A stretch of DNA of 64,000 bases from Bacteroidetes bacterium HGW-Bacteroidetes-4 (lineage in GTDB: Bacteria > Bacteroidota > Bacteroidia > Bacteroidales > SZUA-534): positions 1 through 64,000 of the forward strand of contig PHDD01000009.1 in NCBI GenBank assembly GCA_002840905.1, given 5' to 3'. Shown piece by piece: positions 51,164-51,608 of this stretch; within the stretch, counting starts at the first letter, position 1; each line of letters begins with the position of its first letter. The notes under the pieces were generated by a model that saw only the letters and a list, made by a program, of their open reading frames with translations, had not been told where the DNA came from and searched no databases. A program made the position numbers and the translations under genes.

Positions 51164-51210
51164 ATCCAATAAAAAAAGCCCTGGGAAAACCCGGGGCTTT
51201 GGGTGGAAGA
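51164..51210. repeat. 47-bp direct repeat, distal copy (tRNA-His 3' end plus terminator)
   Basis: All 47 bases are identical to 51496-51542. On the minus strand the copy reads as the last bases of the tRNA-His acceptor arm (TCTTCCACCC) followed by the CCCCGGG-TTTT-CCCAGGG hairpin and T-run. It has no tRNA attached and lies beyond the GIY-YIG gene, so it is the far boundary of a 332-bp duplicated unit. Confidence 0.93.
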
Positions 51211-51230
51211 TCCCGATTCAGGAATCGGGA
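51211..51230. repeat. Palindrome at the distal edge of the GIY-YIG unit
   Basis: TCCCGATTC and GAATCGGGA form a 9-bp perfect inverted repeat with a 2-base centre, directly beside the distal tRNA-3'-end copy. The GIY-YIG stop codon lies inside it. Confidence 0.7.
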
Positions 51231-51490
51231 CGACCATTGGAGCCGCCATTTTTCAAGAGCCAATTCAGGGCAAATTCGCCATTTTTAAAATTTTTAAGTT
51301 TTTTTTCAAGCAGAACAGCTTGTGAACGAGTTTCACACTTAAAAAAAGCAGCAATGTTCCAGGGCCCCTTGTTTCGGGTATATTTGTTTTTACCGTCATT
51401 GTGTCTTTCAAGTCTATCGGACAGGTTATTAGTTTGGCCGATGTAAAAAGAGCCGGACTTTTCTGCGTAAAGAATGTAGGTATAAAACAT
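51218..51490 (-). CDS. GIY-YIG nuclease-domain protein
   Basis: A 90-residue single-domain protein. The GIY-YIG motifs are present as TYILY (residues 4-8) and FYIGQT (15-20), with the catalytic arginine region DRLERHN (Arg26/Arg29) and the metal-binding glutamate Glu62 in AVLLEKKLKNFK. Such UPF0213-like proteins are single-strand-nicking or homing-type nucleases by family, but most are uncharacterised. The gene starts only 5 bases after the tRNA-His terminator T-run and ends in a palindrome next to a second copy of the tRNA 3' end, so it is entirely enclosed by a 47-bp direct repeat. The last residues (NGGSNGRPDS) are encoded by that boundary sequence. Confidence 0.85.
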   Translation of the reverse strand: MFYTYILYAEKSGSFYIGQTNNLSDRLERHNDGKNKYTRNKGPWNIAAFFKCETRSQAVLLEKKLKNFKNGEFALNWLLKNGGSNGRPDS

Positions 51491-51495
51491 AGTTT

Positions 51496-51542
51496 ATCCA
51501 ATAAAAAAAGCCCTGGGAAAACCCGGGGCTTTGGGTGGAAGA
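51496..51542. repeat. 47-bp direct repeat, proximal copy at the intact tRNA-His
   Basis: Identical to 51164-51210. This copy is continuous with the intact tRNA-His gene: it holds the final bases of the acceptor arm and the intrinsic terminator (AAAGCCC...GGGCTTT arms at about 51507-51532), which on the minus strand ends in a run of seven T. Confidence 0.93.
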
Positions 51543-51608
51543 CCGGGCTCGAACCGGCGACCTCTGGAACCACAATCCAGCGCTCTAACCAACTGAACTA
51601 CATCCACC
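51534..51608 (-). tRNA. tRNA-His (anticodon GTG)
   Basis: On the minus strand the acceptor arm is GTGGATG with CTTCCAC (one T-T mismatch), with the extra 5' G(-1) opposite discriminator C that identifies histidine tRNA. The D arm is GTTC...GAGC, the anticodon stem-loop CTGGA-TTGTGGT-TCCAG carries GTG (51571-51573), and the T arm is GCCGG-TTCGAGC-CCGGT. CCA is not encoded. Confidence 0.95.

Follow-up and report, generated by a model that had tools for sequence, protein, structure and literature searches.

Insertion of a classical homing endonuclease gene destroys the recognition site of the encoded enzyme. The system closest in action to the locus described here is SegB, a free-standing GIY-YIG homing endonuclease of T-even phages that, according to the published account, is found near tRNA genes of many isotypes and has been implicated in the cleavage of tRNA-containing DNA and in tandem amplification via homologous recombination, which makes it a precedent for the amplification of tRNA-linked GIY-YIG genes (PMC13096335). 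Dunin-Horkawicz et al. (2006) assigned the bacterial proteins of solved structure to the Slx1 family, and in the available text of this superfamily survey tRNA is mentioned for a fusion with a SPOUT methyltransferase and in the references, but not for a linkage to tRNA genes (PMC1564403). Integrase-borne islands at tRNA 3′ ends have a direct repeat of the tRNA 3′ end and keep a working tRNA, and in REP/RAYT systems a small nuclease-type gene is associated with palindromic hairpins, which occur scattered over the genome as well.

Here, we compare these systems with a tRNA-His locus of Bacteroidetes bacterium HGW-Bacteroidetes-4, situated in a stretch of 64,000 nucleotides (contig PHDD01000009.1, positions 1 to 64,000; hereafter the window), and with its relatives in other genomes. 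Like SegB, these loci consist of a GIY-YIG nuclease gene adjoining tRNA genes of many isotypes and undergo tandem amplification. SegB is phage-borne, whereas the genes described here are chromosomal and encode about 80–100 amino acids; in addition, they are flanked by a partial copy of the host tRNA, a dead tRNA that usually has a swapped arm, and no such feature is reported for SegB in the available portion of that account (PMC13096335). In contrast to integrase-borne islands, the element carries a single small gene and no integrase, the host-specific terminator is duplicated together with the tRNA end, a mirror form with the tRNA 5′ end exists, and the dead copy contains a hairpin. It differs from REP/RAYT in that the protein belongs to the GIY-YIG family and not to the relatives of Y1 transposases, and in that the hairpins replace tRNA arms. 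A group I intron with a homing endonuclease was rejected as well, as no Rfam intron match was obtained at the window locus and the tRNA is uninterrupted. Since the features that define integrase-borne islands, group I introns and RAYT systems are lacking and no description of such an element was found in the open-licence literature, we rate this class of elements as new and its mode of action as probably homing-like. The window locus is one member of a very large and apparently undescribed family.

Organization of the tRNA-His locus

An earlier note on this DNA, made from the sequence alone, had described most of the layout correctly: the two 47-bp copies are identical (47/47 bases, spacing 332), the GIY-YIG gene lies where it had been placed, a palindrome with 9-bp arms (TCCCGATTCAGGAATCGGGA) borders it, and the GIY-YIG ORF is the sole ORF between the repeats, where no gene for a tyrosine or serine integrase lies (Table 1). 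The note erred in taking the far copy for a plain duplicate of the target, as this copy is a dead tRNA 3′ end whose T-arm has been replaced by the hairpin. Read along the minus strand, tRNA-His and its terminator come first, followed by the nuclease gene, the hairpin, the second tRNA 3′ end and the second terminator. In the live tRNA-His, GGTCG is followed by the T-arm CCGGTTCGAGCCCGG and then by TCTTCCACCC; in the dead copy, GGTCG, which with 5 nt alone possibly matches by chance, precedes the hairpin in the T-arm place and again TCTTCCACCC. The predicted RNA fold of the hairpin has −13.8 kcal/mol (z −2.6), compared to −8.5 kcal/mol for the real T-arm in the same context. The nuclease gene starts 5 nt past the proximal repeat and its stop codon lies within the hairpin. 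The tRNA-His gene is single in the window genome, where the other query matches were the orphan copy (C9:51164-51210) and a different tRNA with 76% identity.

Read as a target duplication, the locus comprises a 285-bp insert between two copies of a 47-bp target and, as in tRNA-targeted integrative elements, the insert is flanked by direct repeats that include a tRNA end. This geometry is far beyond chance because it recurs at many other tRNA genes in other genomes.

Table 1. Features of the tRNA-His locus and the evidence for each (positions refer to the window).
Feature	Position	Strand	Evidence
Live tRNA-His(GTG)	51533..51607	-	ARAGORN; Rfam RF00005, 60 bits
Proximal 47-bp repeat copy: tRNA-His acceptor 3′ strand, intrinsic terminator and 7 nt	51496..51542	-	
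GIY-YIG nuclease gene, 90 aa	51218..51490	-	Pfam PF01541, E 1.3e-15
GGTCG ahead of hairpin, perhaps still part of the dead tRNA copy	51231..51235	-	Sequence match
Palindromic hairpin TCCCGATTCCTGAATCGGGA, occupying the T-arm place in the dead copy	51211..51230	-	Sequence; RNA fold
Distal 47-bp repeat copy: dead tRNA 3′ end and terminator	51164..51210	-	100% identical to 51496-51542
Gene and hairpin segment, read as insert between two target copies	51211..51495	-	Missing from syntenic empty sites L047, L051

The predicted nuclease

The catalytic domain of the encoded protein assigns it to the GIY-YIG nuclease superfamily (Table 1). In the alignment with 12 relatives Y5, Y16, G18, H30, E62 and K66 are invariant and R26 is nearly so; the Tyr, Tyr, Arg and Glu positions we take to be catalytic residues, by comparison with I-TevI and Slx1. 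UPF0213 and bacterial Slx1-like single-domain GIY-YIG proteins are its closest relatives of solved structure, the best matches being UPF0213 BH0048 (1zg2, E 6e-14) and EF2693 (1ywl), followed by the structure-specific nuclease SLX1. Purifying selection acts on the family, with a median dN/dS of 0.16 in the 66 close pairs that were usable.

Proteins linked to the same tRNA isotype cluster on a tree of 90 sequences, on which isotype changes 32 times, compared to 62 times after shuffling (0/200 shuffles as low); host relatedness is a partial confounder here, and the tree has many forks without resolution. Host relatedness alone is, however, argued against by one genome (G085) with Arg, Asp, His and Pro elements, which at least in the supported case of Pro (L127 with L198) group with elements of the same isotype from other genomes.

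Distribution and linkage to tRNA genes

With the window protein as query, matches were found in 23 of 60 related genomes, most of them adjoining tRNAs of varied isotypes, and a profile built from 12 sequences of tRNA-linked genes (A1) had matches in 134 of the 247 genomes of the order. The regions of 120 A1 loci were analyzed jointly with nine loci from the search with the window protein; among the 170 genes they contain, a tRNA 3′ end is situated within 60 nt of the start in 63 and within 150 nt in 81. Because A1 was derived from tRNA-linked genes, the unbiased test of linkage is a search of named genomes in which the window protein was the sole query. Here, 62 of 80 loci have a tRNA on the same strand within 150 nt, where 0.28 would be expected, and at none of these 80 loci was a tRNA on the opposite strand found within this distance.

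Among the Bacteroidota the hosts include strains of Flavobacterium, Algoriphagus, Pedobacter, and Phaeodactylibacter; other hosts belong to the Patescibacteria, Planctomycetota, Cloacimonadota, Marinimicrobia, Zixibacteria, Synergistota (Acetomicrobium), and Alphaproteobacteria (Micavibrio). The same geometry occurs in other genomes at genes for tRNA-Ala, Asn, Asp, Met, Val, Leu, Pro, Arg, Gln, and others. Some other GIY-YIG genes of the same genomes (L023, L027, L035) encode a different C-terminus and show no tRNA linkage. The elements are rare on phages and plasmids, with one weak match in each collection, and carriage by either was rejected on these grounds.

Two forms of target duplication

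In the arrangement seen in the window (form A) the live tRNA is followed by the gene and a partial 3′ copy. A check proposed in the earlier note was whether other tRNA-linked GIY-YIG genes have a far copy derived from the respective host tRNA, and this holds for 61 of 66 non-redundant tRNA-linked genes of the order whose tRNA lies no more than 90 nt upstream (58 of 60 under a different alignment rule). The duplicated stretch often extends as far as the start codon, and in many cases the reading frame terminates within the tRNA copy, so that the insert can be barely more than the ORF itself. In the mirror arrangement (form B) a partial 5′ copy is followed by the gene and the live tRNA; it was found at genes for tRNA-Arg (L143, L206, L124, L150, L188, L159, L194), Glu (L165), and Pro (L130). 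The Arg elements of both forms make up one clade, and judging from the tree it is the tRNA isotype and not the arrangement that tracks the protein.

The minimal element inserting at tRNA 3′ ends that the earlier note had proposed is well supported by these duplications and by the empty sites described below insofar as a working tRNA and its terminator are left behind. The tRNA 3′ end is nevertheless too narrow a description of the target, because the mirror form duplicates the 5′ end, and the far copy is usually disabled. One intact copy of the tRNA is always left, and the second copy alone is altered.

At three of the form B loci (L143, L206, L124) the live tRNA-Arg begins within the end of the nuclease ORF and has no obvious promoter of its own; this tRNA may therefore have to be cut from the nuclease messenger.

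Empty sites, relics, and arrays

Relatives lacking the gene and having a single tRNA-His 3′ end, which the earlier note had named as a check, were found among 20 genomes of the family searched with the tRNA-His segment, two of them with conserved gene order. Both the site in the same genus (L047 in G003) and that in the same family (L051 in G004) keep the genes of the window on either flank, with a MORN protein upstream and DNA-alkylation-like and BaxI proteins downstream; at a further site (L053) the downstream genes of the window locus are kept. In the window, the native flank (..TATTGTT..) comes after the distal repeat. Together with the empty syntenic sites, this indicates that the gene was either gained here or lost from the other genomes as one unit that the repeats delimit.

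The tRNA-Asn site of genus g5 is polymorphic for the insertion, being filled in four genomes (G012, G014, G015, G018), occupied by relics in two (G007, G019), and empty in four (G010, G011, G013, G016). Upstream of this site, the empty G013 and the filled G015 are 99% identical, and in G018 the sequence past the distal copy matches the flank of the empty G013. The distal terminator of G015 shows the variant of the empty G013 (gatgTGaatc), and the proximal terminator differs; in this one case it looks as if the proximal tRNA end had come with the element and displaced the native end. With the empty tRNA-His sites and the filled, relic, and empty tRNA-Asn sites, insertion is optional, as it is for homing endonuclease genes of the SegB type. 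Another relic is found at the tRNA-His locus of G008, where a dead copy is followed by a short stub that starts GIY-YIG-like.

Arrays with 2 to 6 units in tandem are frequent and also occur in the single-contig genomes G212 and G231. These arrays, and the presence of the arrangement in contigs of cultured strains (e.g., Algoriphagus vanfongensis DSM 17529 and Flavobacterium species), rule out an assembly artefact.

Proposed mode of spread

We propose, with moderate confidence, that these loci are minimal selfish elements in tRNA genes that do without an integrase and behave like a homing endonuclease gene. The sole product would be a small UPF0213/Slx1-like GIY-YIG nuclease which, to judge from the tree, is specific for one tRNA isotype and would break or nick its tRNA gene. 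Repair by recombination via the tRNA sequence carried by the element would then place the gene in the locus between the tRNA direct repeats that are observed there. Form A, with the live tRNA upstream of the gene, would result from a single exchange on the 3′ side of the swapped arm, and form B, with the live tRNA downstream, from one on its 5′ side; one complete tRNA would survive either way. The arm swap in the partial copy probably removes the nuclease target and/or abolishes the tRNA activity or tRNA fold of this copy, and the direct repeats would allow tandem amplification and loss, resulting in arrays, relics, and empty sites. The steps we infer are isotype-specific nicking or cutting and repair through the tRNA segment of the element. 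The support for the putative nicking of the target by the predicted nuclease consists of its intact catalytic core, the purifying selection, and the isotype clustering. As the live tRNA keeps the presumed site, the rule that insertion destroys the recognition site does not hold for the tRNA itself, and the site may be wider than the tRNA. The retained site speaks against the homing-like reading, as do the little room that proteins of about 80–100 amino acids offer for a separate DNA-binding domain, the rarity of the elements on phages and plasmids, and the partial confounding of the isotype clustering by host relatedness; moreover, a dN/dS this far below 1 is compatible with a host function too.

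Such a function is the core of the first alternative, a domesticated host gene whose nuclease would serve the cell in the repair or amplification of tRNA loci, or in an answer to tRNA-cutting toxins and defences, with host selection keeping it adjacent to the tRNA. Strong purifying selection and the very wide distribution agree with this, as does the reported usefulness of tRNA-gene amplification by SegB in phage T6 (PMC13096335). Yet the gene is patchy in close relatives, with empty and decayed sites within one genus, it is present in 134 of the 247 genomes of the order, and the duplicate is part of one tRNA only and disabled, so that the extra copy adds no dosage. We therefore consider domestication rather unlikely.

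If the homing-like reading is correct, many phyla harbor hidden, near-minimal mobile elements in essential tRNA genes, in units of ~300 bp with one gene and neither integrase nor transposase, and what would permit insertion into such genes is that the target ends up in two copies, of which one is disabled. It would then be testable how a protein of 80–100 amino acids selects one tRNA isotype, how a gene invades an essential locus without cost, and why a conserved hairpin takes the place of tRNA arms.

Hairpins in the disabled tRNA copy

The dead copy is usually marked, at least one tRNA arm being replaced or interrupted by a palindromic hairpin that often has the form TCC...GGA. A palindrome lies inside the tRNA part of 39 of 58 form A far copies, most commonly at the T-loop and also at the anticodon and D loops, and exchange of the whole arm is frequent. 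Most of 26 anticodon-arm segments extracted from far copies by motif read TCCCG...CGGG(A) with variable inner pairs. The same type of hairpin swaps an arm at loci of Gracilibacteria, Moranbacteria, Peregrinibacteria, Planctomycetota, Marinimicrobia, and Micavibrio, and 131 of 200 genes have a TCC...GGA hairpin no farther than about 200 nt away, compared to 7–9% of control windows. For the role of the hairpin, removal of the target, a block on misfolding or activity of the dead copy, and a recognition signal are candidates. A further-reaching version, which we regard as speculative and unlikely to hold, makes the arm-swapped copy itself a working part of the element: a tRNA-shaped DNA or RNA signal with the TCC...GGA hairpin would be read by the nuclease to separate element from target, amounting to guidance by tRNA-gene mimicry in a domain-wide class of tRNA parasites.

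TCCCGA...TCGGGA palindromes are also dispersed in Bacteroidota genomes, with a maximum of 127 copies in a single genome of the order, where the reversed pattern is mostly rare; examples lie in the window genome (L043, L036, L037, L042, L044 in G000), in G012, G160, and G231, and in others. A different palindrome, CCTGCCTGCCGGCAGGCAGG, was seen at L235 in an apparent other repeat. In the window genome itself (L337, G000:C7 ~249093-249289), two tRNA-Lys genes are followed by a dead third copy that has TCCGCCTCGGCGGA in place of the anticodon arm and an insert at the T-loop, with no nuclease gene; it is a relic or an independent case.

Palindromes far from the genes and this tRNA-Lys tandem agree with passive hitchhiking, in which ordinary unequal exchange duplicates tRNA loci, GIY-YIG genes merely come to lie between the copies, and palindromic repeats of independent origin gather as hairpins in the dead copy. 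This explanation is distinctly improbable, as the duplication is present at nearly all tRNA-linked genes and none is linked to a tRNA on the opposite strand, the protein clade follows the tRNA isotype, and TCC...GGA arm swaps near these genes recur in Patescibacteria, Planctomycetota, Marinimicrobia, and Alphaproteobacteria.

Alternatively, the hairpin could be the mobile unit, moved by the GIY-YIG protein into hairpin loops in the manner of REP/RAYT, with tRNA arms merely being good targets. The position of hairpins at loops of the dead tRNA, with the T-loop as the commonest, is compatible with this, and the number of hairpins per genome is correlated with that of the genes (rho 0.57, compared to 0.04 for the reversed pattern as control). 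Within families, however, the association (17:4 pairs) is lost once the hairpins of the element itself are subtracted (12:9), so that a dependence of the dispersed hairpins on the nuclease is unsupported and the idea that it multiplies them was dropped. Genomes devoid of the gene can moreover be rich in hairpins (36 in G007, 66 in G177), and the duplication of the tRNA is left unexplained; we thus give this model very little credence.

That the loci are remnants of ordinary integrase-borne islands with the tRNA as attachment site is hardly conceivable despite the classical att geometry of the tRNA 3′-end repeat, since the repeats enclose the GIY-YIG gene alone at a spacing of about 290–630 bp in all arrays and pairs measured, no integrase occurs in any inspected unit, many isotypes and phyla are involved, and the mirror form duplicates the tRNA 5′ end.

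Consequences for annotation and assembly

The homing-like reading, if true, would also explain some annotation noise, as arm-swapped copies would be called as unusual tRNAs whose anticodons are wrong, and the short contigs of draft genomes would often break at the arrays. At four loci (L191, L158, L177, L105) the tRNA finder assigned arm-swapped copies as Leu-taa, Cys-gca, SeC, and Phe-aaa beside Val or Asn tRNAs, and such copies are a likely source of wrong tRNA annotations. At a tRNA-His locus of the same genus as the window (L048, G001:C393) the contig stops 4 nt past the tRNA, and many other contigs start 80–150 nt ahead of a nuclease gene, as expected if repeat arrays break assemblies.
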